Positions 13,000 to 60,618 of a stretch of 64,000 nucleotides of DNA are shown here, piece after piece. Source of the DNA: Rhizobium album (GTDB lineage: Bacteria; Pseudomonadota; Alphaproteobacteria; Rhizobiales; Rhizobiaceae); contig NZ_QFBC01000002.1 of assembly GCF_003122325.1 (NCBI RefSeq), forward strand, positions 620,001-684,000, read 5' to 3'. The translations under genes and the position numbers were made by a program. How positions within the stretch are numbered: the first letter of the stretch is position 1; every line of letters starts with the position of its first letter. The notes below the pieces were generated by a model that was not told the DNA's origin, did not search any database, and was given only the letters and a program-made list of their open reading frames with translations.

Positions 13000-13303
13000 G
13001 TTCATGGGGCAGGGAACGAGGATGGGGACCGGATGGGTTAGAAGCTCGCCTGCCATTTCGTTGGCCACGGAGAGAAACCGGAAAAATTTCCGTGTTCTCC
13101 TTCTCCATCATGTCCGGTTGGCACAGTCCGCCATCCCTGCCCACCAAACGCCAGAATGATCGACAGGTTCCCGGAAAACTGAAGAAATCGCCGCTTCTTT
13201 ATCTTTTCACGCCAGGAACTTTCCGATTTTGCCGGTGTTGACTCGCCACTCCGCCCGCGCGGTCCCCCGCGTGGCAACCGCCGACAAGGACACCCGCTGC
13301 CAG
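13000..13303. other. Intergenic stretch without a gene
   Basis: The gap between the TerC terminator and the SLC13-type transporter shows no convincing coding frame, RNA gene or repeat. It presumably holds the transporter promoter. I could not pick a clear -35/-10 pair. Confidence 0.5.
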
Positions 13304-34845: not shown

Positions 34846-37293
34846 ATGAAGGCGATCCCCAACAAGGCGAGAGCCGTCATCATCGGCGGCGGCGTATCGG
34901 GCTGTTCCGTCGCTTATCACCTGGCCAAGCTCGGCTGGACGGACGTGGTGCTGCTGGAGCGCAAGCAGCTGACCTCGGGCACGACCTGGCATGCCGCCGG
35001 CCTGATCGGCCAGCTGCGCGCCTCGCAGAACATGACGCGGCTCGCGAAATATTCCGCCGACCTCTACGTCAAGCTGGAAGCCGAAACCGGCATCGGCACC
35101 GGTATGCGCCAATGCGGCTCGATGACGGTGGCTCTGACGGAGGAGCGCAAAGAAGAGATCTATCGCCAGGCTTCGCTTGCCCGCGCCTTCGGCGTCGATG
35201 TGCGCGAGATCACCGTCGATGAAGTTAAGGGCATGTATCCGCACCTCAACACCGCCGATGTCAAGGCGGCGGTGCATCTGCCGCTCGACGGCCAGTGCGA
35301 CCCCGCCAACATCGCCATGGCGCTGGCGAAGGGTGCGCGGCAGAACGGCGCGACGGTGATCGAGAACGTCAAGGTCACCGCCGTGCTCAGGAAAGACGGC
35401 CGGGTGACCGGCGTCACCTGCGAGCAGAACGGCGAAACCTACACGATCGAGACCGAAAACGTCGTCAACGCCGCCGGCATGTGGGGCCGTGAGCTCGGCA
35501 ACCTTTCGGGCGTCACCGTGCCGCTGCATGCCTGCGAGCATTTCTACATCGTCACCGAGCCGATATCGGGCCTGAAGCAGCTGCCGGTGCTGCGCGTGCC
35601 CGATGAATGCACCTACTATAAGGAGGATGCCGGCAAGATGCTGATCGGCGCTTTCGAGCTGAAAGCCAAGCCCTGGGGCATGGACGGCATCTCGGAGGAT
35701 TTCTGCTTCGACCAGCTGCCGGAGGATTTCGACCACTTCCAGCCGATCCTCGAAAACGCCATCAACCGCATGCCGATGCTGGAAACCGCCGGCATCCACA
35801 CCTTCTTCAACGGCCCGGAAAGTTTTACGCCCGACGACCGTTATTATCTCGGCGAGGCGCCGGAGCTGAAGGGTTACTGGGTCGCGGCCGGTTACAATTC
35901 CATCGGCATCGTTTCGTCCGGCGGCGCCGGCATGGCGCTGGCGCAGTGGATGAACGACGGCGAGCCGCCCTTCGACCTCTGGGAAGTGGATATCCGCCGC
36001 GCCCAGCCCTTCCAGAAGAACCGCACCTACCTCAGGGAACGCGTCACGGAAACGCTCGGCCTGCTTTATGCCGACCATTTCCCCTACCGCCAGATGGCGA
36101 CCGCCCGCGGCGTGCGCCGCACGCCGCTGCACGAGCACCTGAAGGCCCGTGGCGCCGTCTTCGGCGAAGTCGCCGGCTGGGAACGCGCCAACTGGTATGC
36201 CAATCCGGGCCAGGAGCAGGAATACCGCTATAGCTGGCAGCGGCAGAACTGGTTCGAGAACCAGAAGGCCGAACATCTGGCGATCCGCAACGGCGTCGGC
36301 TTCATCGACATGACCTCCTTCGGCAAGATCCGCGTCGAGGGCCGCGATGCGCTCGCTTTCCTGCAGCGGCTCTGCGCCAACCAGATGGACGTCGAGCCGG
36401 GCAGGATCGTCTACACCCAGATGCTCAACCATCGCGGCGGCATCGAGAGCGACCTGACGGTCACCCGCCTTTCGGAAAACGCTTATCTCCTCGTCGTGCC
36501 CGGCGCGACGCTGCAGCGCGACCTCTCCTGGCTGCGGCGCAACCTCGGGAGGGAAGAATTCGTCGTCATCACCGATGTGACGGCGGCGGAATCCGTGCTC
36601 TGCATCATGGGGCCGAAGGCCCGCGAGTTGATGCGGAAGGTCAGCCCGAACGATTTCTCCAATGCCGCCCATCCCTTCGGCTCGGTGCGAGAGATCGAGA
36701 TCGGCATGGGTCTCGCCCGTGCCCACCGCGTCACCTATGTCGGCGAACTCGGCTGGGAGCTTTACGTCTCCTCCGACCAGACGGCGCATGTGTTCGAAAC
36801 GCTGGAGGACGCCGGCCGCGATCTCGGCCTGAAACTCTGCGGCATCCACACGCTCGATTCCTGCCGCATCGAAAAGGCCTTCCGCCATTTCGGCCACGAC
36901 ATCACCGACGAGGACCACGTCCTCGAAGCCGGCCTCGGTTTTGCCGTCAGGACCGGCAAGGGCGATTTCATCGGCCGCGATGCGGTGCTGCGCAAGAAGG
37001 AGGCCGGGCTCGACCGCCGGCTGGTGCAGTTCAAGCTGACCGATCCGCAGCCGCTGCTCTTCCACAACGAGGCGCTGGTGCGTGACGGCAAGATCGTCTC
37101 GATCGTCACCTCGGGCAATTACGGCCACCACCTCGGCGGCGCCATCGGCCTCGGCTACGTGCCGTGCAAGGGCGAAAGCGAGGCGGACGTGCTGGGCTCG
37201 GCTTACGAAATCGAGATTGCCGGCACGCGGGTGAAGGCCGAGGCCTCGCTGGCGCCGATGTACGATCCGAAGGCCGAGCGGGTGCGGATGTAA
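34846..37293 (+). CDS. Dimethylglycine/sarcosine dehydrogenase-like FAD protein with GcvT domain (copy 2)
   Basis: Also 815 residues, with the same domain order: GGGVSGCSVAYHL, covalent-FAD motif GTTWHAAGLIGQLR, and C-terminal GcvT domain (TYVGELGWELYVSSDQ, LDSCRIEKAFRHFGHDI). It starts 2 bases after copy 1. The two are divergent in sequence, so they probably act on successive or different N-methyl substrates. A 12-bp hairpin follows before the Rieske gene. Confidence 0.88.
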   Translation: MKAIPNKARAVIIGGGVSGCSVAYHLAKLGWTDVVLLERKQLTSGTTWHAAGLIGQLRASQNMTRLAKYSADLYVKLEAETGIGTGMRQCGSMTVALTEERKEEIYRQASLARAFGVDVREITVDEVKGMYPHLNTADVKAAVHLPLDGQCDPANIAMALAKGARQNGATVIENVKVTAVLRKDGRVTGVTCEQNGETYTIETENVVNAAGMWGRELGNLSGVTVPLHACEHFYIVTEPISGLKQLPVLRVPDECTYYKEDAGKMLIGAFELKAKPWGMDGISEDFCFDQLPEDFDHFQPILENAINRMPMLETAGIHTFFNGPESFTPDDRYYLGEAPELKGYWVAAGYNSIGIVSSGGAGMALAQWMNDGEPPFDLWEVDIRRAQPFQKNRTYLRERVTETLGLLYADHFPYRQMATARGVRRTPLHEHLKARGAVFGEVAGWERANWYANPGQEQEYRYSWQRQNWFENQKAEHLAIRNGVGFIDMTSFGKIRVEGRDALAFLQRLCANQMDVEPGRIVYTQMLNHRGGIESDLTVTRLSENAYLLVVPGATLQRDLSWLRRNLGREEFVVITDVTAAESVLCIMGPKARELMRKVSPNDFSNAAHPFGSVREIEIGMGLARAHRVTYVGELGWELYVSSDQTAHVFETLEDAGRDLGLKLCGIHTLDSCRIEKAFRHFGHDITDEDHVLEAGLGFAVRTGKGDFIGRDAVLRKKEAGLDRRLVQFKLTDPQPLLFHNEALVRDGKIVSIVTSGNYGHHLGGAIGLGYVPCKGESEADVLGSAYEIEIAGTRVKAEASLAPMYDPKAERVRM

Positions 37294-37320
37294 CCTCTTC
37301 TCCCCAGCGGGGAGAAGAGG
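37294..37320. repeat. Short palindromic repeat hairpin
   Basis: A perfect 12-bp stem (CCTCTTCTCCCC with GGGGAGAAGAGG) and loop AGC begin directly after the stop codon. It is the same core hairpin as in the RIME-like element at 27775-27797. With no T tract it is more likely an mRNA-stability element than a terminator. Confidence 0.65.
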
Positions 37321-37400
37321 GAGCAAGAGGCTCCCGCAACAGACACCATACGCGCGCCGGAACGCGGATTTTCCGGTTTGTCTTCAAGGAGATGAACATC

Positions 37401-38639
37401 ATGCTCGCGCCCGAAATCAAAACCCGCGAAAAACCCCTCGACCGCATCGACCAGCTGGTCGCCGCCCATCGTCCGGGTTATGCGCTCACCCGCCCCTTCT
37501 ACATGGATCCGGAGATCTACGAGCGGGACCTGGAGCGGGTGTTCTTCCGCCACTGGCACTGTCTCGCCCATGAAAGCGTCATTCCCAACCCGGGCGATTT
37601 CGAAGTCTTCAAGCTCGCCTCGGAAGCGGTGATCCTGACGCGCGCCAAGGACGGCACCGTACATGCCATGCTGAACCTCTGCCGCCACCGCGGCGCCGAG
37701 GTTTGCACCAAGCCAAAGGGCAATGCCAAGGCCTTCGTCTGCCCCTACCATGCCTGGACCTACGGCAATGACGGCGCGCTGAAGGCGGCCCGGCTGATGC
37801 CGAAGGATTTCAAGCGCGAGGACCACGGGCTGAAGAAGCTGCATGTGCGCGTCGTCGAAGGCTTGGTCTTCATCTCCTTCGCCAAGGAGCCGCTGGATTT
37901 TTCCGAGGTGGAAAACCTGCTGCATGCCACCGCCGGCCAGTATGGCTGGGGCAAGGCCAAGGTCGCCCATCGCCAGACCTATCCGGTCGACGCCAACTGG
38001 AAACTCGCGGTCGAGAACTATGTCGAGTGTTACCATTGCGGCCCGGCGCATCCGGAATATTCCGAGACGCATGCGCTGGAACAGCCGCTGCACATGATCG
38101 AGGAACTGAACGCCAAGATGGAAGCCCGCACCTGCGCGCTCGGCATCGACGTCGGTTCCGGCGATCACTGGCAGACCTCGCGCAACAACAAGGAAGCCAT
38201 CCACGCCTTCCGTTATGCGCTTTATGACGGCGTCAAGACCGGCAGCAAGGATGGTTCGCCGCTGTCGACCCTGATGGGTCGTTTCAGCGATTTCGACGGC
38301 GGCGTCACCTCCATCCATCTCGGCGGCACTTCCTTCCTCGTCTGCTACGCCGACCACGGCATGATCTACCGCTTCATTCCGCGGGGCGTCGAAGCCTGCG
38401 AGATGGAACTGATCTGGCTTGTCGACGAGAAGGCCGAGGCCGGCGTCGATTACGATTTCGACAAGCTGACCTGGCTCTGGACGGTGACCACCGACGAGGA
38501 CAAGGCGATTATCGAGCATACATCTCGCGGCGTCCGCTCGCATTTCTACGAACCCGGCCCGATCGCGCCGATGGAGCAGAACGAGTTGCGCTACATCAAC
38601 TGGTATCTCGACGAGATTTCGCGCCCTGTAGGCGCCTGA
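37401..38639 (+). CDS. Rieske non-heme iron oxygenase, alpha subunit type
   Basis: This intact oxygenase has 412 residues. The Rieske domain has CRHRGAEVC and CPYHAW (C-x-H...C-x2-H, about residues 90-120), and the catalytic domain has mononuclear-iron ligands in [15 protein letters not shown]. It resembles betaine N-demethylases such as glycine-betaine (GbcA) and stachydrine (Stc2) demethylases. With the upstream dimethylglycine/sarcosine-dehydrogenase-like genes it suggests a stepwise N-demethylation route for a methylated amine. No reductase is seen nearby. ATG 37401 with AAGGAG nine bases upstream is preferred. Confidence 0.9.
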
Positions 38640-47985: not shown

Positions 47986-49345
47986 TCAGGCAAGCTTACG
48001 GCCATCCACCCATACGCCGGCTATATTCGCCCGGGATGCACCGAAAATGATCTTTTGCAGGATGTCGTCGCCGGCATCGAGATCATCCCACAGGCGAATC
48101 GTTCCTTTATCTGCATTGGTATCGACCACCATCGCATCGAATCGATATCCGGGCGAGAACTGGCCGACCGGCAGGTCGAGGGCTTTCGCACCCCCTGCGG
48201 TGGCCACATGGAAGGCATCGCGGAAATCGAGGCGCGCCGGGCCGAAGGTGCTACGCGACGCAGCGTCGAGCCGCGGATCGACGCCGCTTTCCAACATGCG
48301 CGAGACCATGATCGCCGCCCGGCAGTTTTCGAACATCGAGGCACTCGGCCCACCGGAAATATCCGTGCCGAGGCCGACATTCAGCCCCTTCTCCAGTGCC
48401 GCCCGCAAGGGGAAGACGGCATTGGCGAAATAGGCGTTGGAGAGCGGGCAATGTGCCACCGCCGATTGCCGCGCCTTCAGCGTCTCGACATCCTTTTCCG
48501 TCAGGAAATTCGCATGCGCCAGCACGCTGTGGCGTCCGAGCAGGCGGAAGCGATCGAGGCTTGCCGTATCGGTCATGCCGTGGCGCGACAGCACGTAGCC
48601 ATGCGCCCAGTCGCTTTCCGAACAATGGGTCTGCACATGGCAGCCGCAGTCACGGGCAATAGTGCCGAGCCCTTCCAGCGTCGCATCGGTGCAGGAGGGG
48701 ATGAAGCGCGGCGTCACCACCGGCAGCACGCGCTTTTCCGCATTGTCGGGATGGCTGCGGATATAGTCGATCAGATCGCGCGTGCCGGACAGCGCTGCAT
48801 CCGCCGAGGCGTCGCGATAATAGTCTGGGCACTCCTCGGCATTGTCCATCGCCACCTTGCCGATCAGCGCCCGCTGGCCGCGTTCCAGGCAGGTATCGGC
48901 GAGAATGCGCGTCGCATCCTGGTGAATGGTGGCGAAATAGAGCGCCGTCGTCGTGCCGTTGGCGATCAGGTCGTCGACGAGGAGACGGTAGGCGCGGCGA
49001 GCGAAGGCATGGTCCTCGCGCCTCCAGAGGAAAGGTGTATCTCTGCAGCCACACCTCCAGCGGCACGTCGAGCGCATTGCCGAGCTGCGGAAATTGCGGC
49101 GCATGCACATGCAGGTCGACGAAGCCGGGGAGAAGATAAGAGCCTTCCGGCAGCGTCACCAGTTCGCCGGCTGCAGCGCGGGTTTCGCGGATGGCGCGGT
49201 AGTTCGGATCGCCATGGCGATGGATCGAAGCGATCGTTCCGTTCTCGTCGATCGAAATCAGCACGTCGTCGAGACGATCGATGAGACCGCGTTCCGGGGA
49301 GTGGAAACCGGAGGCGCAGATCGCCTTGTTCCGCAGGTGGGTCAT
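47986..49345 (-). pseudogene. guaD: Guanine deaminase interrupted by a frameshift
   Basis: Two adjacent frames together give a full guanine deaminase (guanine to xanthine). Residues 1-109 (from ATG 49345, GAGGA upstream) carry GFVDLHVHAPQFPQLG and PLEVWLQRYTFPLEA. The remaining 344 codons in the next frame start at EDHAFARRAYRLLVDDLI and carry HCSESDWA, LAHANFL and GTDISGGPS. The break is at about 49015-49021 (one extra base, or two missing). It is either a true pseudogene or a sequencing error, because everything else in the gene looks conserved. It is probably last in the purine operon. Confidence 0.85.
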
Positions 49346-49474
49346 GCACATGTCCTCAATATCAGCCTGCCCGGAGGGCTGGCCGCAAAATATGGCCTCC
49401 TTATATACCCAAGCCGTGATCTTATCACATTGTCCGACACCGAAGCGACATCGCTTCGGCTGGACACGCCCCAG

Positions 49475-50815
49475 TCAAAGGCTGCGATCGCGAAGCGCCA
49501 GGGCTTTTTCCCGGAACCTGGCGCGGATTTCGGCTTCGTCGATCCCCGGCAGGATACGATCCTCCATGATCACCCGCCCGTCGACGATGGTGGTGACGAC
49601 ATCGTCGGCCCGCGCCGAATAGACGAGCGCGGCCGCATGATCGTAGACCGGCAGGCAATGCGGCTTGTCGAGATCGACGATGATGACATCCGCCTTCTTG
49701 CCCGGGGCCAGCGAACCGACCTCCGGCCGGTTCATCGCCTTCGCGGCGCCATGGGTGGACAGTTCCAGAAGCGCGTTGGTCTTGAGAAATTCCACGTCGC
49801 CAGTCTTGTCCTTGTGGATAATGCCGGCGAATTTCATCTCCTGGAACATGTCCAGCGTATTGTGGCTGGCCGGCCCGTCCGTCGCCAGCCCGACGGTGAT
49901 GCCCGCCTCCTGCATGCAGCGCAGCCGCATCGTGCCGGAATTGAGCTTGGCGTTGCAGCAGGGGCAATGGGCGATCCTGGTGCCCGTCTCCGCCATGATG
50001 TGGATATCGTCGTCGTTGAGCTGGGTGCAATGGGCGGCCGTGACGTCGCCTTTCAGGAAACCCAGCGAATGCAGCCATTGCACCGGCGTCGTGCCGTAGG
50101 TCTCGGCGACATGGGCGATTTCCTGCGGCCCCTCGGCGAGATGGGTGTGGATGACGACATCCTCGGCATCCGCCACTTCCCGCACCAGCCGATACATGTC
50201 GGCACCGCAGGAATAGGGCGCGTGCGGCGACAGAGCCAGGTGGATGCGATCGTTGCCGCTGCGGTGATATAACGCGACGCGATCGCCGAACGTCTCCAGC
50301 GCCTTCCACGACCAGTCAGTGATCGGCTCGTAGATGCCGCGATCGGCAAAACCGTAACCGAGCGTCGCCCGGAGCGGCACCACCTTCAGCGCCTCCAGTT
50401 CCGGGCTGACGGCATAGGCGTCGAAATGTTCGTTGAAGGTGATCATGCCCGATTTCACCATCTCGACCAGGCCCATCAGGCTCGCCCAGTAGAGCGTGTC
50501 GGGATCGAAATTGCGCTTGAGCCGCCACATCGTCTTCAGCCATTCGAAGAGCTGCACGTCTTCCAGCAGTCCGCGCAGCAGCATGTTGGAGGCGATATGG
50601 GTGTGGCAGTTGACGAAACCCGGCATGACGACGCGGCCCCTGGCATCGATCACCTTGGCCGCCCCCTGCGTATCGATCTCGGCGGCCGGTCCGACGGCGG
50701 CGATCGTATCGCCTGATATCGTCAGCGCGCCGCTTTCGATCTTCGGCCGCCCCGCCATCGGCAGGATGACCGCGTTGACGATGGCGATATCCGCCGCTGC
50801 CTGTGTCATGCTCAT
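49475..50815 (-). CDS. Amidohydrolase of the AtzB/8-oxoguanine/SAH deaminase group
   Basis: This 446-residue amidohydrolase has metal ligands in NCHTHIASNMLLRGLLED, VVIHTHLAEGPQE, TAAHCTQLND and GLATDGPASHNTLDMF. The family deaminates heterocycles such as 8-oxoguanine, isoguanine, S-adenosylhomocysteine or hydroxylated triazines. The neighbouring purine transporter and deaminases favour a purine substrate. Its ATG overlaps the stop of the upstream oxygenase gene (ATGA), so the two are translationally coupled. Confidence 0.88.
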   Translation of the reverse strand: MSMTQAAADIAIVNAVILPMAGRPKIESGALTISGDTIAAVGPAAEIDTQGAAKVIDARGRVVMPGFVNCHTHIASNMLLRGLLEDVQLFEWLKTMWRLKRNFDPDTLYWASLMGLVEMVKSGMITFNEHFDAYAVSPELEALKVVPLRATLGYGFADRGIYEPITDWSWKALETFGDRVALYHRSGNDRIHLALSPHAPYSCGADMYRLVREVADAEDVVIHTHLAEGPQEIAHVAETYGTTPVQWLHSLGFLKGDVTAAHCTQLNDDDIHIMAETGTRIAHCPCCNAKLNSGTMRLRCMQEAGITVGLATDGPASHNTLDMFQEMKFAGIIHKDKTGDVEFLKTNALLELSTHGAAKAMNRPEVGSLAPGKKADVIIVDLDKPHCLPVYDHAAALVYSARADDVVTTIVDGRVIMEDRILPGIDEAEIRARFREKALALRDRSL

Positions 50816-51669
50816 GCCGCCTGTGCCGTCGTGCCGTAGGTAATGCCCTTTTCCTTCAGCCAGCGGCGATAGGCGATCGAGGTCGCATCCGCCCGCGTCG
50901 GGATTTCGGTGCGCGGTTCCATCGGCAGGAGCACCGGCCGCTGGTTTTCCAGGATGATGCGGTCCTGCAGGAAGATGACCTGCTGGAAGCCGACCAGCTC
51001 CGTCACCGTCGAGACGTCGTCGATCAGGAACATCACCGGATGCGCCCGGCAGCGATCCGGATCGAGCGGCTGGACGAAGAGGCAGATCAGGTCCTGGCGC
51101 GTCTCGGAATTCGGACAGGTCTTGTAGAGCAGCGTCGTGAACGGCGTCATCACCCGGTAGACATATTGCGTCATCAGGCCGCCGGTGGCCGACAACGCCG
51201 CCTGCGGCTGGAAGAACTGGCAGTTCGTCGCCCAGACCTCGTCGACGTCGCGGCGAATCTCGGCATTGTAATGAAGCACTTCCGTATGCGGCTCGGCGCC
51301 GAGGATATCGGTGTGCACGAAGGGGAAGTGCGCCATGTCGAGGAAATTCTCGACAATGCGCAGCGCCGACGCCTTGACCGACACCACGCCGCAATTGACG
51401 ACGCGCCGGTCCGGCTCATGGGCCTCGGGAATGGGAAACAGATCGTGGTTCGGGCTGCCGAGCGTCGTCCAGATGAAACCGTAGCGGCGGATGATCGGCA
51501 GTTGCCGCTCCTCGCCCTCCGGCGTGATGGTGATCGTGCCGTCAGCCGTGCGCGTCACGTCGAGATCGGTGCCGAGCAGCCGGTTGCGCGAGGCGCCGTA
51601 GGGGATCAGCGTTTCGGTATCGATGACGTGCCACTGGTCGAGAGCGGCCTTGTCGGTGCATGTGCCCAT
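50812..51669 (-). CDS. Rieske-less non-heme iron oxygenase catalytic subunit (NdmC-like architecture)
   Basis: This 285-residue protein is related to VanA-type Rieske oxygenases. The N-terminal flanks of a Rieske domain remain (LLGTDLDVTRTADG, then RRYGFIWTTLG), but the C-x-H...C-x2-H cluster region between them is gone, reduced to about 13 residues. The mononuclear-iron site is intact: N108-x2-D111-x2-H114-x4-H119 (ENFLDMAHFPFVH) and a likely third ligand at D236 (QDRIILENQ). It therefore needs a Rieske domain in trans; the protein at 57456-58166 is the obvious candidate. Co-translated with the amidohydrolase and in the purine-transporter operon, so a purine substrate is inferred. AGAGGC precedes the ATG. 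Confidence 0.85.
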   Translation of the reverse strand: MGTCTDKAALDQWHVIDTETLIPYGASRNRLLGTDLDVTRTADGTITITPEGEERQLPIIRRYGFIWTTLGSPNHDLFPIPEAHEPDRRVVNCGVVSVKASALRIVENFLDMAHFPFVHTDILGAEPHTEVLHYNAEIRRDVDEVWATNCQFFQPQAALSATGGLMTQYVYRVMTPFTTLLYKTCPNSETRQDLICLFVQPLDPDRCRAHPVMFLIDDVSTVTELVGFQQVIFLQDRIILENQRPVLLPMEPRTEIPTRADATSIAYRRWLKEKGITYGTTAQAA

Positions 51670-51682
51670 AGCCTCTGCCTTT

Positions 51683-51946
51683 CTACTGGCTGTAAATCCT
51701 GTCCATGACAGTCTGGTGTTTTGCGAGCAGGCTTTCAACATCGGTGTGGCGGAACTCGCTCGAGCCGATGATCTGACGTCCGTTGATATAGGAATAGTCG
51801 GCCTTGAACGGGCCGCACATCACCAGTGCGGCCAGGGGATCGCGCTGGGTGCCGGACAGCCCGAGTTGGCTCCGATCGATGGCAATAACATCGGCGCTCA
51901 TACCGGGCGCCAGATGGCTGATGTTCTTGACCAGCAGAGTCGGCAT
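51683..51946 (-). pseudogene. Internally deleted amidohydrolase remnant (87 residues)
   Basis: The frame starts with MPTLLVKNI, like the N-terminus of 8-oxoguanine-deaminase-type amidohydrolases. It passes after about 12 residues straight into their C-terminal end (APGMSADVIAIDRSQLGL, DPLAALVMCGPFKADY, INGRQII). All catalytic metal ligands are missing. It keeps a good start (GAGGAT) and an intact frame, so it is probably translated. It lies between the permease gene and the oxygenase gene, with 10- and 13-base gaps. A relic is most likely; a retained structural role cannot be excluded. Confidence 0.7.
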
Positions 51947-51956
51947 CGTAAAATCC

Positions 51957-52892
51957 TCAGCGTACGTCGCGATAATAGGGTTCACCAAGGGCGGCGGGTG
52001 CGGCCATGATGCGGCGCATGCGCTGCCAGGCGACAACAGGCACGATGATGAAGGCGATGGTGCCAAGGTACGGCAGCATCGACAGGATCGGCGCCGCGAT
52101 CGGCCAGTTGCGCGCCTGGCCGACGAAACCGAGCGAGGTGATCAGGCCGAACAGCAGCGCCGCGCCCACCGCATTCAGCGGCCGGTATCCCGCAAAAATG
52201 ACCAGCGACACCGCGATCCAGCCACGCCCCGCCACCACGCCCTCCGACCAGGACGGCACGAAGGCGAGCGTCAGGTAGGCGCCTGCCCCGCCAGCCAGCG
52301 CCGAACCGGCCGCGACATACCAGAAGCGGATTTTCTGCACCGGGATGCCGGCAGCATCGGCGGCGGCCGGATTTTCGCCGAGCGCGCGCATATTCAGCCC
52401 GTGGCGGGTACGGAACATCAGGTAATGCAAGGCGATCGGCAGCACGATGTAGATCAGGTAGACGAGGATGTTCTGGGTGAACAGGCCGCGGCCGATGACC
52501 GGGATCTCGCTGAGATAGGGGATGGCGATCGGCGCGAAGGTGGCCGGCGCCGGCATGCCGGAATAGGCCTTGCCGATGGTGGCGGCGAAACCGGTGCCCA
52601 TCAGCGTCAGGGCAAGGCCGCAGAGCACCTGGTTGGCGCGGATATAGACGGTGACGAAAGCGAAGACGCAGCCGACCATGAGGCCGACCAGCAGGGCGCA
52701 GAGGAAACCGAGCGCCGGATTGGGAATGGCGACGACGGTGGCGATGCCGGTGATGGCGCCGAGCGCCATCAGGCCTTCCGCGCCGAGATTGACCACGCCC
52801 ACCCGCTCGGCCAGCACTTCGCCGAGTGCCGCGAGCGCCAGCACGCCGCCGGCGAGGATGGATGTCTGGATGAGGCCGGCGATAAGATCCAT
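51957..52892 (-). CDS. Nucleoside/purine-type ABC transporter permease
   Basis: This 311-residue permease of the branched-chain/nucleoside type (YufQ-like) has about nine helices and the conserved GAEGLMALGAITG and GRGWIAVSLVIFAGYRP segments. It pairs with the permease encoded just upstream to transport nucleosides or purine bases delivered by the BMP-family binding protein. Confidence 0.9.
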   Translation of the reverse strand: MDLIAGLIQTSILAGGVLALAALGEVLAERVGVVNLGAEGLMALGAITGIATVVAIPNPALGFLCALLVGLMVGCVFAFVTVYIRANQVLCGLALTLMGTGFAATIGKAYSGMPAPATFAPIAIPYLSEIPVIGRGLFTQNILVYLIYIVLPIALHYLMFRTRHGLNMRALGENPAAADAAGIPVQKIRFWYVAAGSALAGGAGAYLTLAFVPSWSEGVVAGRGWIAVSLVIFAGYRPLNAVGAALLFGLITSLGFVGQARNWPIAAPILSMLPYLGTIAFIIVPVVAWQRMRRIMAAPAALGEPYYRDVR

Positions 52893-52904: not shown

Positions 52905-53957
52905 TCAGGCCTTGGCCGGTTCGGTGCGGATGATGCGGTAATGCGCCAGCTCGTCACCGATGGCGGTGAAGAACAGGATGAGGCCGGTGATGGCGAGCAC
53001 GGTGGACACGTTCAGCCCCTGCGTCTGCAGGATGATGCCGGAATTGAGGATGATGCCCATCAGCGCCGCGCCCGCCAGCACACCCAGCGCCGAACCGCGC
53101 GCCAGAACGGCGACCATGATGCCGAGATAGCCGAAATTGTTGGAAATGCCGCCCTGCAGGCGATGCACGGTGCCGGCCACCTCGAACATGCCGGCAATGC
53201 CGGCAATGGCGCCCGACAGCAGCATGACGAGGATGAGGTGCCGGCGAAACGGCATGCCGGCATATTTCGCCGCCTGCGGATTGGAGCCGGCAATCCGCAC
53301 CTCATAACCCCAGCGGGTGAAGGCAAGCACGGCTGCGACCAGGATGGTGATCACCACCGCCAGCGGAAAACCCCAATGGACGATGCCCCAGAATTCCGGA
53401 ATGTCGTGCGGCAGCCGCGCCGTGGTGGCGAGCGCCTGGCCGCCCGGATCGAGCCATGGGCCGGTCGCCACCCAGTAGACCAGCAGGGTGGCGACGAAGT
53501 TGAGGAGCAGCGTGGTGATCAGCTCGTTGACGTCGGCATAGGCCCGCGCCAGCGTCGGGATGAGGATCCACAATGCGCCGCCGATGGCGCCGGCGACGAA
53601 CATCAGCGGCAGCATCACAATGCTCGGGCCGGGGATGAACAGGGCCACGCCGGTCGCCGCGAAGGCGCCGGCATAAAACTGGCCCTCGCCGCCGATGTTC
53701 CACGCGCCGATGCGCTGGGCGACGGCGACGGAGAGGCCGGTGAGGATCAACGGCGTCACCAGGAGGCCGACATCCTCCAGCCCGAAGCTGGAGCCGAAGG
53801 TGGCCTTGATCACCTGGCCCGCAAGTTTCAGCGGGCTGGCGCCGGTGCCGGCGAGGATGATGCCGGCAACCAGCAGCGCCAGCACAATCGCCACAACGCG
53901 GGCGGCAAGGGCAGCGGATGGCGGGGCGGACGGAAAACGCTGGACACGAACGGACAC
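52905..53957 (-). CDS. Nucleoside/purine-type ABC transporter permease
   Basis: This 350-residue permease (YufP-like) has about eight to nine helices. WNIGGEGQFYAGAFAATG and VNELITTLLLNFVATLLVYW are family hallmarks. It starts 2 bases after the ATPase stop and ends 12 bases before the second permease. Confidence 0.9.
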   Translation of the reverse strand: MSVRVQRFPSAPPSAALAARVVAIVLALLVAGIILAGTGASPLKLAGQVIKATFGSSFGLEDVGLLVTPLILTGLSVAVAQRIGAWNIGGEGQFYAGAFAATGVALFIPGPSIVMLPLMFVAGAIGGALWILIPTLARAYADVNELITTLLLNFVATLLVYWVATGPWLDPGGQALATTARLPHDIPEFWGIVHWGFPLAVVITILVAAVLAFTRWGYEVRIAGSNPQAAKYAGMPFRRHLILVMLLSGAIAGIAGMFEVAGTVHRLQGGISNNFGYLGIMVAVLARGSALGVLAGAALMGIILNSGIILQTQGLNVSTVLAITGLILFFTAIGDELAHYRIIRTEPAKA

Positions 53958-53959
53958 GA

Positions 53960-55558
53960 TCAGGCCTCCGCAGTGCTGGCGGCGGCAAAACCGCCGCGCT
54001 GGCCGCCCATCATCAGGCCGATGTCTTCGATGCTGGCGCTGCCGGTTTCGGCAATGCCCATGATTTCGCCATGGAACATCACGGCGATGCGATCGGAGAG
54101 GTTCAACAATTCCTCCAGCTCTTCTGAAATCAGGATGACGCCGACGCCGAGATCGCGCAGCTCGACGAAATAACGCATCATCGTGTTGATGGCGCCAACG
54201 TCGAGGCCGCGGCTCGGATAGGCTGCGATCAGCACCTTGTCGGCGATGCGCATCTCGCGACGGGCGACGAGGCGCTGCTGGTTGCCGCCGGAGAGGTTGC
54301 GCACCGGCATGCCGAAATCCGGCACCATGACGGAGGCCGCCTCGGCGATCTGCCGCGCGAGGCCGATGGCGGCGCGCGGACGGAAGAAGCGGCCGGCGGA
54401 GACCGGCGGTTTCATATATTCACGGATCACCGCATTGTCGGTGACGCTGAGCGCCGGCGCAAGGCCGCTGTAAAGCCGGTCCTCCGGGATATGCCCGACG
54501 CCGAAGGCGGCGAACTCGGCCGCGCCGGCGCCGGAAAAATCCTTGCCGCCGACGACGATTTCGCCCGATGCCGCCGGCCGCATGCCGGTCAGAACCTGGC
54601 TCAACTCCTTCTGGCCGTTGCCGGCAACGCCGGCGATCCCCAGAATTTCGCCGGCATGGATATCGAGCGAAATGCCCTTCAGCACCGTATTGCCGTCGCC
54701 GTTGCGGGCGGAAACCGAGCGCAGGCGCATGACCGGCGCTGTGGAGACAGGAGCTGCATTCGGCCCGCGGGCGCGCAAATTGCTGAGCACGATGTCGTGG
54801 CCGACCATCAGCCGGGCCAGCATCTTCTGCGAACAGTCCTTCGTCAGTTCCGTCGTCACCTTGCGGCCGCCGCGCAGCACGGTGATGCGGTCGGATATCT
54901 CCAAAACCTCGTCCAGCTTGTGGCTGATGAAGATGACGGCATTGCCGCGCGAGACGAATTCCTTCAGCGCCTTGAAAAGCTCGTGCGCCTCGGCCGGCGT
55001 CAGCACGGCGGTCGGTTCGTCGAGAATCAGGACGCGGGCGTTGCGGGTCAGGACGCGGAGGATTTCGACACGCTGCTGTTCGCCGGTGGAAAGATCGCCG
55101 ACACGCGCCTGCGGCCGGACGGCGAGGTTGAGCGCCTTGGCAAGGTCTGCCGTGCGCGCCTCCAGCGCCTGGGCGCTGATGCGCTTCGGCGTCTCATCCC
55201 AGCCGAGATGGATATTTTCCGCCACGGTGAAGGCTTTCACCAGCTTGAAATGCTGGTGGACCATGCCGATGCCGGACGCGATCGCCTCGACCGGCGAGGC
55301 GAACGTCCTGGCATACCCGTCGATGATGATCTCGCCGGCATCGGGCTGGTAAATGCCGGTGAGGATGTTCATCAGGGTCGACTTGCCGGCGCCGTTTTCG
55401 CCCAGCAATGCATGGATTTCCCCCGGCATCACGTCGAGATCGACGTCCTTGTTGGCGATGACGCCGGGGAAATATTTGCAGATACCCTTGAGCAGCACGA
55501 GCGGCGGCGTTCCCGGAGCAATCTCCATGGTGGCAGGTGTTGCGGCAGACGCTGTCAT
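53960..55558 (-). CDS. Nucleoside/purine-type ABC transporter ATPase (double domain)
   Basis: This 532-residue tandem ATPase is of the YufO/RbsA type. Domain 1 has GENGAGKST, LSTGEQQRVEIL and LILDEPTAVLTP. Domain 2 has the degenerate loop GVAGNGQKEL, LSGGNQQRLVARRE and a Walker B with Tyr (AAYPSRGLDVG). A degenerate second site is usual in this family. The sequence upstream of 55558 in the same frame belongs to the binding-protein gene in another frame and is not part of the product. Confidence 0.93.
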   Translation of the reverse strand: MTASAATPATMEIAPGTPPLVLLKGICKYFPGVIANKDVDLDVMPGEIHALLGENGAGKSTLMNILTGIYQPDAGEIIIDGYARTFASPVEAIASGIGMVHQHFKLVKAFTVAENIHLGWDETPKRISAQALEARTADLAKALNLAVRPQARVGDLSTGEQQRVEILRVLTRNARVLILDEPTAVLTPAEAHELFKALKEFVSRGNAVIFISHKLDEVLEISDRITVLRGGRKVTTELTKDCSQKMLARLMVGHDIVLSNLRARGPNAAPVSTAPVMRLRSVSARNGDGNTVLKGISLDIHAGEILGIAGVAGNGQKELSQVLTGMRPAASGEIVVGGKDFSGAGAAEFAAFGVGHIPEDRLYSGLAPALSVTDNAVIREYMKPPVSAGRFFRPRAAIGLARQIAEAASVMVPDFGMPVRNLSGGNQQRLVARREMRIADKVLIAAYPSRGLDVGAINTMMRYFVELRDLGVGVILISEELEELLNLSDRIAVMFHGEIMGIAETGSASIEDIGLMMGGQRGGFAAASTAEA

Positions 55559-55590: not shown

Positions 55591-56703
55591 TCAGAGGCCG
55601 ACGACGCCTTCGATCGACCAATCCCAGTTGTAGAGTTCTTCTTCGGTCATGGTCTGGCCGGCGGCGACCTTCACATTGCCCTTCGAATCCTTGATTTCGC
55701 CGGTGAACGGGCTCCAGCCGCCGAGGATCTTTTCGCGGATGGCATCGGCCTGCTTGCGGGCTTCTTCCGGAACCGTCTCGCCCCAGGCATCGCGATCGAC
55801 GCCGGCACCCATGGCCAGCAACGTTTGCGACGGCGTCCACTTGCCTTCGAGGCGCAGGCGCACCTGCTCGACGTAATATTTCTTGAAGTCGATGACGATC
55901 GACGAGACATAGGCCTTGGGGCCGTAACGGCGGATGTCGGTGTTCCACATCACCGCCTTGGCGCCACGCTGTTCGGCGACCTGCAGGTAACCCGCCTCGT
56001 CCATGATGCCGAACAGCAAGTCACAGCCGTTGTCGAGCAACGCCGTGCCGGCCTGGGTGGCAGCCTGCGGATCGAACCACGAGTTGATGACGACGACCTG
56101 GATCGTGGCATTGGGATTGACCGAGCGGGCGCCCATCAGGAAGGCGTTGGTGCCGGAAAAGACCGAAGGAACCGGGAAGGAAGCGACGTAACCGAGCTTG
56201 CCGGTCTTGCTCATCAGGCCGGCGGCGACGCCGGTGACATAGGTCGGATACCAGTGTGACAGGTAATAGGTGGACAGGTTTTCGAGCGGATTGCGGCCGT
56301 CGCACTCATAAAAGGCAACCTCCGGCGAGCGCTTGGCGACGTCGTAGAGGAAATCGCCGTAGTTCGAGGTGGCGAACACCATGTTGGCGCCTTCGGAGAC
56401 GAACTGGCGGTACGTACGGGTGGCATCGGCCGAATAGGGAATGCTTTCGACGAACAGGGTCTTCAGCTTGGGGAAGGCCTCCTGCACCGCCTTCATGCCC
56501 TGGTCATGGCTCCAGGTCCAGCCTTCGTCGGTCACCGGGCCGGTATGGCCGAAGGCGATCACGGCGTTTTCTTCCGCCACGGCCGCCAGCGGCTCGGCGG
56601 CGCGTGCCGGACGGATCAGGCCGCCCGGCAGCAACAGCGACGTGCCGGCGGCAGCGCCCATGTTCAGAAAGCCGCGGCGGGAGAGATTACGCAGGTCGAT
56701 CAT
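55591..56703 (-). CDS. BMP-family ABC transporter substrate-binding protein
   Basis: This 370-residue periplasmic protein of the Bmp/PnrA family binds nucleosides or purine bases. It has a twin-arginine signal (LSRRGFLNMGAAAGTSLLLP), then a PnrA-like core (FGHTGPVTDEGWTWSHDQGM, FATSNYGDFLYDVAKRSPEV). AGGGGAACAC precedes ATG 56703. It is the first gene of the leftward purine operon, so expression starts in the 56704-57191 divergent region. Confidence 0.92.
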   Translation of the reverse strand: MIDLRNLSRRGFLNMGAAAGTSLLLPGGLIRPARAAEPLAAVAEENAVIAFGHTGPVTDEGWTWSHDQGMKAVQEAFPKLKTLFVESIPYSADATRTYRQFVSEGANMVFATSNYGDFLYDVAKRSPEVAFYECDGRNPLENLSTYYLSHWYPTYVTGVAAGLMSKTGKLGYVASFPVPSVFSGTNAFLMGARSVNPNATIQVVVINSWFDPQAATQAGTALLDNGCDLLFGIMDEAGYLQVAEQRGAKAVMWNTDIRRYGPKAYVSSIVIDFKKYYVEQVRLRLEGKWTPSQTLLAMGAGVDRDAWGETVPEEARKQADAIREKILGGWSPFTGEIKDSKGNVKVAAGQTMTEEELYNWDWSIEGVVGL

Positions 56704-57455: not shown

Positions 57456-58166
57456 ATGATTGAACACAAGAGCTGGATACCGGTGGCACTTTCCACCGCG
57501 CTGGAGCCGGGAACCTCGGCAGGAACGCTGGTCGGCGGCGGCGAACTGGTGGTGTGGCGCGACACCAGGGGTGCCGCGCATGTCTGGGAAGACCGCTGTC
57601 CGCATCGCGGCATGCGCATGAGTTTCGGTTTCGTGCGCGGCGACCACATCGCCTGCCTCTATCACGGCTGGCAATACGACACCGCTGGCCAGTGCCAATA
57701 TATCCCGGCGCACCCGACCCTCGACGTGCCGAAGACCATCAAGGTGCCGACCTATACGGCGGCGGAAAAGGGCGGCATCATCTGGGCGGCGCCGTCCTCG
57801 GAAGCAGCGGAAGCCGCTATCCCGGTCGAGGATGGCGAAGTGGTGCCCGTCCGCAGCATCTACATCGATCGCCCGTTCGCGGCCGTGCTTGCGGCGCTGA
57901 CAAACGCCAACATCCCCGCCTTCACCGGTGATACCGCGCCGCGCTTCGAAACCATCGCCGACGGGATCGTTATCGTCTCCACCGGCGCCGACCGCCTGCT
58001 GATCGCCTGCCAGCCCTTCAACCCGACGCGTACAGCGCTGCACCTCGTCATCCAGGGGTCGGCGGAAACCTATGGCGGTGCCGGGCAGAAACACTTCGCC
58101 CGCTGGGCGGAAACCTTCCGCCTGCTGCTGGAAACCGCCTCTACACCCGTTGCGGAGGTGGCATGA
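57456..58166 (+). CDS. Stand-alone Rieske [2Fe-2S] protein without oxygenase site
   Basis: This 236-residue protein has an N-terminal Rieske domain like that of VanA-type oxygenases with C48-x-H50 (CPHRGMRMSFGF) and C67-x2-H70 (CLYHGW). The remaining 130 or so residues resemble a shrunken oxygenase C-domain but contain no N/D-x2-H-x4-H iron site. It can therefore pass electrons but not activate oxygen. It is complementary to the Rieske-less catalytic protein at 50812-51669. Its stop overlaps the GST-like start (ATGA), so the two are made together. Confidence 0.88.
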   Translation: MIEHKSWIPVALSTALEPGTSAGTLVGGGELVVWRDTRGAAHVWEDRCPHRGMRMSFGFVRGDHIACLYHGWQYDTAGQCQYIPAHPTLDVPKTIKVPTYTAAEKGGIIWAAPSSEAAEAAIPVEDGEVVPVRSIYIDRPFAAVLAALTNANIPAFTGDTAPRFETIADGIVIVSTGADRLLIACQPFNPTRTALHLVIQGSAETYGGAGQKHFARWAETFRLLLETASTPVAEVA

Positions 58167-58798
58167 TGCCGGCGATCACCCTCTACAATTACGATCTCGA
58201 CGAAAACAGTTTTCGCGTCCGCCTGATGCTTGCCATGCTGAAGCTGGAGCACGCGACCATCGCCATCGACATGTTTCCCGGACAGGAGCAGACGAGGCCG
58301 GCGATGCTGGCCATCAACTCGCAGGGCACCCTGCCCGTGCTCGTGGATGGCGATCTAACGCTTGCCGGCACCGAGGCGATTCTTTCCTACCTTGCCAAAG
58401 CATACGACCCGGCCCGGACTTGGCTGCCCGAAGATGCCGCCGGTTTCGGCCGCGTCCAGGGCTGGCTGCATTTTTCAGCCACCATGCTCGAAAACGCCAA
58501 GCAGGCTCGCCTGCAGGCTCTGTTCGACACGCCGGGCGATGAAACGGCCCTGCGCGCCGCGGCGCGAAAAGCCTTCCGCATCATGGACGACCACATGACG
58601 GCGCGGCATTTCGACGGTGCGGACTGGTTTGTCGGGGACAAGCCGAGTTTGGCGGATCTGACGCTGTTCCCCTCCTTCGCCTTGAGCCGGGATTTTGGTA
58701 TCGATCATGACGAGTTCCCGGCGCTTCGGCTGTGGATTCGCAAATTTCGCGCCTTGCCCGGTTTCTTCACGATGCCGGGCATTCCCGATTACCATTGA
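58163..58798 (+). CDS. Glutathione S-transferase-like protein (NdmE-like role possible)
   Basis: This 211-residue protein has an N-terminal thioredoxin-fold GSH domain ([39 protein letters not shown], about residues 58-77) and a C-terminal helical domain ([16 protein letters not shown]). The usual Glu-Ser of the G-site appears as Thr-Glu. It is translationally coupled to the Rieske gene. In the NdmCDE N7-demethylase a GST-like subunit (NdmE) is required for the complex, so a structural role is plausible here. Confidence 0.85.
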
Positions 58799-58815: not shown

Positions 58816-60618
58816 ATGAGCAGTTTGACCCGCTTTTCCGTCGCGCCGCTGTCGACCATGACCCGCCGGCTCGCCGACGTCGCTTCCGGCCGCACCGCGC
58901 CGGACCTGGTGATCAGGGACGCCCGCGTGCTCTCCACCTATTCCGAGCGGATCCTGCCGGGCAAGGAGATCTGGTTGGCGAACGGCCGCATCGCCGCCGT
59001 CAAGCCGGCCGGCACCTACAAAAGCGGTTCGGCCAAGCTTTACGACGCCCGCGGCGGCATCATCGCGCCGGGCCTCGTCGATCCGCATATCCACATCGAA
59101 TCGTCGATGGTGACGGCCTGCGCTTACGCGGAAGCCGCCCTTCTGAACGGCACGACCACCATTTTCTGCGACAGCCACGAGATCGGCAACGTCATGGACG
59201 TCGCCGGCGTCGAGGCGATGCTGGAGGATGCCCGCGAGGCGCCGCTGTCGATCTTCCTGACGGTGCCGAGCACCGTGCCGGCCACCTCGCCGGAACTGGA
59301 AACCGCCGGCGGCGACCTGACGCCGGAAAAGATAGCCGCTTTGTTCGACAAATGGCCGGAAGCCGTGGCACTCGGCGAAAAGATGGATTTCGTGCCGGTC
59401 GCCATGGGCGACGAGCGTAGCCATGCCATCCTCGCCGCCGCCCTGTCGCGCGGCCGCCCGGTCTCGGGCCATGTCTACGGCCGCGAGTTCGTCGCCGCTT
59501 ACGCAGCGTCGGGTGTCAGCGACACGCATGAGGCCATCGACCGCGACATCGCCGACGACCTGCTCGAGGCCGGCGTATGGCTGTTCCTGCGCGGCGGCCC
59601 GCCGACGACGCCGTGGCATTCGCTGCCGGAAGCGATCAAGACGATCACCGAGCTCGGCGCCTCGCACAAGCGTATTGCCGTATGCACTGACGACCGCGAC
59701 GCCGACGACCTGCTGCTCTTCGGTCTGGACTGGGTCACCCGCGAGGCGATCAAATACGGCATGAAGCCGGAACAGGCCTGGGCCATGGGCTCACTGCACG
59801 GCGCCACCCGTTTCGGCATGGAGAACGAAATCGGCGGACTCGGCGGCGGCCGCCGCGCCGACATCGTGCTGCTTTCCGACGACCTCAAGCCGGTCAACAC
59901 CTGGTATGGCGGCGAACTGGTGGTCGAGGGCGGCAAGATCACCTCGACACTCGATGCCGCACTTTCGAAGCCGTACCGCTATCCGGAGGCGGCCTACCAC
60001 ACCGTCAAGCTGCCGAAGGCGATCAAGCTGACGCCGGAACTGCCGACCGAAAAGGTGATCGCCCACACGATAAAAACCGAGCTTCCGGGCATCACGCTCG
60101 GCCATATCAAGGTCGCACTGGAGCCGGCCAACGACTGGCAGACACATTTCGACCGCCACGGCCTGTGCTTCGTCACCGTCATCGAGCGCCACGGCAAGTC
60201 GAGCGGCAATGTCGGCTACGGCCTGCTCAACAATTTCGGCTTGAAGAACGGCGCCGTCGCCTCCTCGGTCGGCCATGACAGCCACAACATCATCATTGCC
60301 GGCACCAACGAGGCCGACATGCAGGTGGCGTTGCAGGCGGTCGCCGAAACGCAAGGCGGCGTCTGCGTCGTCGTCGATGGCAAGGTCACGGCGCATGTGG
60401 CCCTGCCGATTGCCGGCCTGCTCTCCGACAAGCGCGTCCATGACGTTGCCGACGAGGTGAAGGCGCTGAAGGTCGAGTGGGAAAAGGCCGGCTGCACCAT
60501 CGCCTACATGGGCTTCAACCTCATCCCGCTGTCGGTGATCCCGGAAATCCGCATCACCGACAAGGGCAACGTGCTGGTGCCGGAAATGGCGATCCAGCCG
60601 CTGTTCGAGGCGGTGTAA
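58816..60618 (+). CDS. ade: Adenine deaminase
   Basis: Converts adenine to hypoxanthine with release of ammonia. The 600-residue amidohydrolase of the AdeC/YicP type has the metal site [14 protein letters not shown] near residue 93, DSHEIGNV, and the C-terminal adenine-deaminase domain ([16 protein letters not shown]-like, [15 protein letters not shown]). ATG 58816 is chosen for its usual N-terminus; the ATG at 58732 lies inside the GST gene. LysR starts at the base after its stop. Confidence 0.93.

Follow-up and report, generated by a model that had tools for sequence, protein, structure and literature searches.

The window analysed here is a 64,000-nucleotide stretch of the Rhizobium album genome. 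It holds a gene cluster with both an oxygenase gene that has no Rieske domain and a gene for a small, free-standing Rieske protein. The first of these encodes what we call subunit A, a Rieske-less oxygenase catalytic subunit of 285 aa (50812..51669, minus strand). Its stop codon overlaps the start of a TRZ/ATZ-type amidohydrolase gene (49475..50815, minus strand; Pfam Amidohydro_1, E 1.6e-60) as ATGA, which is the coupling to a neighbor that an earlier, sequence-only reading of this DNA had described. The second encodes subunit B, a free Rieske protein of 236 aa (57456..58166, plus strand; Pfam Rieske, E 1.6e-22), and has an ATGA overlap with the gene for a GST-like protein that resembles NdmE (58163..58798, plus strand; Pfam GST_N/GST_C). 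The genes of an ABC transporter are also present: two permeases (51957..52892 and 52905..53957, both minus strand; Pfam BPD_transp_2), an ATP-binding protein (53960..55558, minus strand, start inferred; Pfam ABC_tran), and a BMP/PnrA-like substrate-binding protein (55591..56703, minus strand, start inferred; Pfam Bmp, E 5.6e-38). A and B are divergently transcribed with 5.8 kb between them and do not form one operon in the window. In R. etli, B and A overlap and are followed by the GST gene, and many loci have the A and B genes overlapping or directly adjacent.

Three further genes of the cluster resemble purine deaminase genes. An adenine deaminase-like amidohydrolase (58816..60618, plus strand, start inferred) matches the NCBIfam adenine deaminase model at E 3e-105 with 353 bits, which is below the cut-off of 472. 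The other two are damaged. One is the remnant of an 8-oxoguanine-deaminase-like gene (51683..51946, minus strand, start inferred) with a partial match below the cut-off of the NCBIfam 8-oxoguanine deaminase model. Two relatives (L038 and L166) have a longer gene, to which the C-terminal 80 aa of the remnant show 69% identity, and a longer version is present in L104 as well. The remnant is in frame: some 13 residues from the N terminus run directly into the last 80, and the junction lies in a short similar stretch. The other damaged gene is guanine-deaminase-like (47986..49351, minus strand) and is broken across two frames, so that tblastn recovers it as two pieces; the longer piece scores 322 bits against the NCBIfam guanine deaminase model (cut-off 375). 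This gene is a single open frame in L040, and the split seen here is either a mutation or a sequencing error. Elsewhere in the window is an apparently full-length Rieske oxygenase gene (37164..38639, plus strand) with, upstream of it, an FAD-oxidoreductase-like gene, one half of which is likely of the glycine-cleavage-T type, both named from reading the sequence. A riboswitch might have hinted at a ligand, but none was found in the window at Rfam thresholds, the sole match being the Rhizobiales sRNA Atu_At1 (13026..13133, minus strand, 108 bits).

In a Pfam scan of the 285-aa A protein, VanA_C covered residues 98–273 (E 3e-20), KshA_C gave a sub-threshold match, and no Rieske domain was found. 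Alignment with the full-length relatives L161 and L162 showed that a stretch of 63 residues containing C-x-H...C-x2-H in those proteins corresponds to 16 residues in A. With HMMER, residues 44–102 of the chain in PDB entry 6wn3 face residues 44–52 of A (59 vs. 9). The edges of the deletion vary with the aligner, and 59–63 residues are reduced to 9–16. This is close to the earlier estimate that about 55–60 residues had been replaced by about 13, and both of the flanking anchors quoted with that estimate are present, LLGTDLDVTRTADG at residues 31–44 and RRYGFIWTTLG at residues 61–71. The claim that the catalytic domain is kept agrees with the VanA_C match and with the residues D111, H114, H119, and D236, which do not vary in any of 51 aligned sequences, one of them from the window. 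From knowledge of the family, we take these to be the 2-His-1-Asp iron site plus the bridging aspartate (Asp111).

An AlphaFold model of A (mean pLDDT 89.4) matches Rieske oxygenases in the PDB. The best structural match is SxtT (E 1.8e-21, TM-score 0.86 by query length), and NdmA ranks lower. The top PDB sequence matches of A and B are SxtDIOX and SxtT, which belong to one family of oxygenases. A further Rieske-less paralog, sharing 58% identity with A, is encoded in the same genome at window coordinate 65756–66619 (G000:C12:685756-686619). It lies 1.8 kb past the window end in the same extended cluster and adjoins another amidohydrolase match. A similar cluster in Rhizobium tumorigenes also has genes for a GMC oxidoreductase and a molybdopterin oxidoreductase.

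A Pfam domain search of the genome found seven places with a Rieske domain, and B is one of these, in the same cluster as A. Its putative cluster ligands, C48, H50, C67, and H70, are invariant in 54 of 54 aligned sequences, and it has no iron-ligand motif. The best PDB sequence matches of B are alpha subunits (E 2e-22); weaker matches are to the ferredoxin of naphthalene dioxygenase (E 7.6e-6) and to CarAc (E 1.3e-5). The predicted model of B (pLDDT 93.1) aligns over residues 1–235 with residues 3–309 of GxtA (Z 22.0, rmsd 3.2, 230 of 236 residues). From this model, B looks like a complete but shrunken alpha subunit, a miniature that is more than a Rieske domain. Comparison of the B and A profiles aligned mainly the N-terminal part (B 6–157 with A 12–119), and it is from the structure match obtained with the predicted model that the B tail is proposed to be homologous to the catalytic domain. 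Among the matches listed for this genome, there is one B at E 1e-15 vs. the two copies of A, so that a single B may serve both A subunits. The GST-like protein is 34.6% identical to the GST of an ndm cluster (137 bits with blastp); the next best GST of the R. album genome scored 40 bits, with a program other than blastp.

To place these proteins among relatives, we used named loci from other genomes, which are the best 80 of at least 572 relatives. All 81 A proteins of these loci (one locus has two) contain D-x2-H-x4-H and none has the cluster motif. Eighty of them passed a length filter of 265–310 aa, being 279–304 aa long, and one from L196 was checked unfiltered. A-type proteins carry the iron site of alpha subunits of the VanA/NdmA type, that is, 2-His-1-Asp plus the bridging Asp, but C-x-H...C-x2-H on the same chain occurs in 0 of 81. 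The opposite pattern was observed with the free B proteins of the 80 loci, where the cluster motif is present and the iron-ligand motif absent in 77 of 77 (74 length-filtered, plus L197, L198, and L204 checked unfiltered; the L196 B also passes). Because the architecture is the same in 81 of 81 A-type proteins, the loss of the Rieske lobe in A is neither chance nor an assembly error.

We also surveyed 397 genomes sampled evenly across the order. At a threshold of E 1e-30, 66 genomes match A. The gene is Rieske-less in 62 of these, as checked on the DNA, and full-length with the Rieske motif in four (G073, G114, G149, and G179), whose proteins are 36–40% identical to A. In all 62 genomes with a Rieske-less gene, the same contig carries a Rieske partner no more than 7.6 kb away, the pairing being judged by eye from the match rows of the A and B scans. 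The partner is a separate small B gene in 41 genomes and is fused to an NdmD-like reductase in the remaining 21. The fused partners are frames of at least 570 aa with the Rieske domain first, and the reductase half was matched in 21 of 21. In the three fused proteins scanned with Pfam (L039, L146, and L158), the Rieske domain comes first and a plant-type ferredoxin domain last, with an NAD-binding domain between them in two. Among the matches listed for the 335 genomes without a Rieske-less A, there was no short B-like Rieske frame.

Gene neighborhoods gave a similar picture. In the named loci of at least 15 kb (n = 74), B is present in 72, GST in 71 (72 with L177), and a BMP-type binding protein in 59. 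A is found without B in the named loci L211, L214, and L241, in the plasmid loci L031 (where the stretch ends at the start of the record) and L032, and in four stretches of 20 kb centered on second copies of A (L109, L112, L114, and L117), with B elsewhere in those four genomes. Some neighborhood loci center on a second A copy, and B or GST may then sit elsewhere in the genome. Mirror-tree correlations over 76 loci were 0.71 for A–B, 0.73 for A–GST, and 0.84 for B–GST. The A–B value is not the higher one and the pair is not singled out, so this analysis was dropped as support for the pairing. Outside this set, pSymA of Sinorhizobium meliloti 1021 (L254) has three Rieske-less genes, all about 8 kb or less from a single NdmD-like fusion, a 602-aa Rieske-reductase frame. 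NdmCDE-like trios also occur beside a TIM-barrel protein and 2-oxoglutarate/iron oxygenases on plasmids of Klebsiella pneumoniae (L253) and Pseudomonas putida (L250), the latter also with the urate hydroxylase HpxO; these neighborhoods suggest other purine substrates.

We compared selection on the three genes with dN/dS values obtained by simple counting, where pairs share sequences and are not independent. Whole-gene medians were 0.107 for A (329 pairs), 0.162 for B (51 pairs), and 0.107 for GST (62 pairs). When A was divided at residue 75, a split point chosen by hand, the median was 0.223 for the remnant N part and 0.057 for the catalytic part (303 pairs). With B divided 32 residues after PAHP, also by hand, the Rieske part gave 0.083 and the shrunken tail 0.26 (51 pairs). 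A and B thus look like reciprocal remnants with mirrored selection.

A quick-method tree of A used 77 of 179 rows after thinning, with the root forced onto the full-length group. The step between full-length and Rieske-less proteins is one change on this tree, which carries a long-branch warning for some full-length rows and has an unresolved base. The genes of the four Rieske-keeping genomes fall outside the Rieske-less clade. Inside it is the NdmC-like gene of Pseudomonas putida MT178 (L251), whose plasmid cluster is ndm: two other oxygenases there match NdmB and NdmA in the PDB at 785 and 765 bits, and the cluster also carries an NdmD-like fusion beside NdmC, a GST, and formaldehyde genes. 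For the Rieske domain, a tree was built with a careful method from 54 rows and 119 columns, 10 fused forms among them. Free B proteins form one clade (98/87), fused NdmD-like proteins form another (100/97), and the two are sisters (98/84). Nearest to both are four full-length oxygenases of family f38 (96/89), and these same four are the nearest full-length rows to A by branch length. Because f38 is nearest to both halves, A and B point to one kind of full-length ancestor. The full-length relatives have no reductase fused to them, so the simpler reading would be that free B came first and that NdmD arose by a fusion afterwards.

These results bear on the proposal, made in the sequence-only reading, that the gene had undergone functional reduction rather than decay. 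Family-wide loss, one change on the tree, and the dN/dS values of A and of its catalytic part favor this. Close relatives that keep the Rieske motif, which could have marked a strain-specific deletion, were not what the survey returned, where 62 of the 66 matching genomes are Rieske-less and the four keepers lie outside the clade. Nor does the catalytic domain evolve neutrally, given its median over 303 pairs. Functional reduction is therefore supported, but that reading had missed that the lost half lies in the same cluster, as the Rieske protein at 57456–58166 together with the GST-like protein. Because the lost half is present there as a separate protein, the A–B system is probably a split enzyme and not merely a reduced one.

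The remaining parts of such a system are an electron source and a substrate. No reductase match was found in the 64-kb window. The genome as a whole has five candidates that are 29–33% identical to an NdmD-type reductase half, two of them beside other Rieske proteins. Among the loci with free B, only three (L120, L155, and L157) have a separate reductase match nearby, which hints that B might be reduced in trans; in L120 the reductase stands between B and a full-length oxygenase, its possible true partner. The substrate of the A–B system is likely purine-like, because the cluster contains a BMP-type ABC transporter and adenine-, guanine-, and 8-oxoguanine-deaminase-like genes. In the 74 named loci of at least 15 kb, a guanine deaminase match is present in 30 and an adenine deaminase match in 42. 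Full-length relatives in L159 and L161 have a guanine deaminase match within about 7 kb, and one on a plasmid of the Gram-positive Niallia taxi (L252) is about 2 kb from such a match.

Taken together, these data support the idea, to which we assign a probability of roughly 0.8, that one Rieske oxygenase is divided between A, which supplies catalysis, and B, which relays electrons, and that it works with the GST-like protein in the manner of NdmCDE. Both halves would derive from full-length oxygenases of a kind that persists today in the vicinity of BMP transporters and guanine deaminase. A would have lost the cluster lobe and kept the 2-His-1-Asp iron site with the bridging aspartate; B would have kept the cluster while its catalytic domain shrank and the iron ligands were lost. 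A, B, and the GST-like protein would most likely assemble into a hetero-oligomer. An NAD(P)H reductase would reduce B, the electron would pass from the B cluster through Asp111 of A to the A iron, and A would then oxidize a purine-like substrate by hydroxylation or N-dealkylation. The analysis itself shows the loss in A, the retention in B, their co-occurrence, the fold they are predicted to share, the phylogeny, and the selection, and from these we infer a physical complex of the three proteins, this electron route, and oxygenase activity. In Rieske oxygenases the electron is believed to go from the cluster to the iron of the neighboring subunit via a conserved aspartate, according to the accessible text of PMC12445004, and the accessible part of PMC10380055 gives a cluster-to-iron distance of about 12 angstroms across NdmA/NdmB subunits. 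The bridging Asp is invariant in A although A has no cluster.

Several alternatives were weighed against the split-enzyme reading. A could have ceased to be an oxygenase and been repurposed as a binding or regulatory subunit with a helix-grip fold. We found no reported activity for a free-B system, and an amidohydrolase gene overlaps A, but the iron site and bridging Asp are complete and invariant, and NdmC, which has an NdmC-like relative in the A clade, is described in the accessible portion of PMC4408171 as an active N7-demethylase subunit. We consider repurposing unlikely. That A is fed by the Rieske cluster of another full-length oxygenase or by a generic Rieske ferredoxin, with B serving something else, is quite unlikely. 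The genome does offer other Rieske proteins among its seven Pfam matches, and the two genes are not one operon in the window. Against this, B tracks A in 62 of 62 genomes and overlaps or abuts it in many loci, and the neighbor of NdmC in the L251 ndm cluster is a reductase fusion with a Rieske domain of the same lineage.

The small size of B and its weak matches to ferredoxins raise the question of whether it is a Rieske-type ferredoxin of an ordinary three-component oxygenase. Such a ferredoxin is a single Rieske domain of about 100 residues. Those matched by B have 103–115 aa, and we rejected this identity on fold and length, as B has 236 aa and alpha subunits match its model from one end to the other. 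Its best matches are also to alpha subunits, its model carries the shrunken catalytic domain, and A offers no cluster for a ferredoxin to reduce, all of which makes the ferredoxin explanation very improbable. Finally, that A is a functionless product of decay or of a deletion confined to this strain, derived from an ordinary oxygenase, could draw on the two damaged neighbors, the deaminase remnant and the frame-broken guanine deaminase, but was rejected as having almost no chance of being correct on the architecture shared by 81 of 81 homologs in 80 named loci and the dN/dS of A and of its catalytic part, and the iron ligands invariant in 51 of 51 sequences also speak against it.

As a comparison, the split-enzyme reading can be set beside known Rieske systems. 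Alpha subunits of the VanA, NdmA, and SxtT type (alpha3) have the fold predicted for both A and B and share the catalytic domain with A, but carry both metal sites on each chain, whereas A and B have one each. Three-component Rieske dioxygenases such as carbazole dioxygenase have a separate small Rieske protein, as with B. Their terminal oxygenase keeps its own cluster. By contrast, A is without a cluster, and B resembles an alpha subunit. The closest parallel is NdmCDE, the caffeine/7-methylxanthine N7-demethylase of Pseudomonas putida CBB5. It has a Rieske-less catalytic subunit, as A; it has the Rieske domain on another protein, as in the A–B pair, where B is assigned to that role by sequence motif and gene linkage; and a GST-like third subunit is encoded alongside, as at 58163–58798. 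However, NdmD has its Rieske domain fused to a flavin (FMN)/NADH/plant-ferredoxin reductase, whereas B is separate and ends at 236 aa. The contexts also differ, being a BMP transporter and deaminases in the window and NdmA/NdmB and formaldehyde genes for NdmCDE. Because B is unfused to a reductase, we file the A–B system as working like NdmCDE and not as NdmCDE.

Loss of the cluster in A is already known in kind from NdmC. The accessible text of a 2015 review describes NdmC as lacking the Rieske cluster and calls NdmCDE very unique (PMC4408171). NdmCDE is a stable 3:3:3 complex in which the GST-like NdmE is structural and needed for solubility, according to the available part of PMC10380055, and its structure is said to be unsolved in the available part of PMC13237722. 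In the literature searched (titles and the starts of abstracts, with subscription journals mostly absent), we recognized no free Rieske partner for a Rieske-less oxygenase, and the accessible part of PMC6421345 has nothing on a Rieske-less or free-Rieske system. What may be new here, as far as this literature suggests, is that the Rieske subunit is free, that it has the character of a shrunken alpha subunit, and that loss and selection are reciprocal in the two proteins.

These observations can be extended to a wider hypothesis, to which we give about an even chance. A and B would be copies of one ancestral alpha gene that degenerated reciprocally, so that contacts between cluster and iron occur only between different polypeptides. 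One B (and one GST) would serve at least two exchangeable A subunits of different specificity, using housekeeping reductases, and the free form would be ancestral to NdmCDE, which would have arisen when B became fused to a reductase in one event. If each polypeptide has one metal site, the cluster and the active site could be mutated, titrated, and swapped separately. A shared relay subunit could pair with different catalytic subunits, and the split system offers a simple evolutionary route to NdmCDE. It also provides a testable identity for genes of rhizobia and acetic acid bacteria, some of which currently have no label beyond ring-hydroxylating dioxygenase or Rieske protein.
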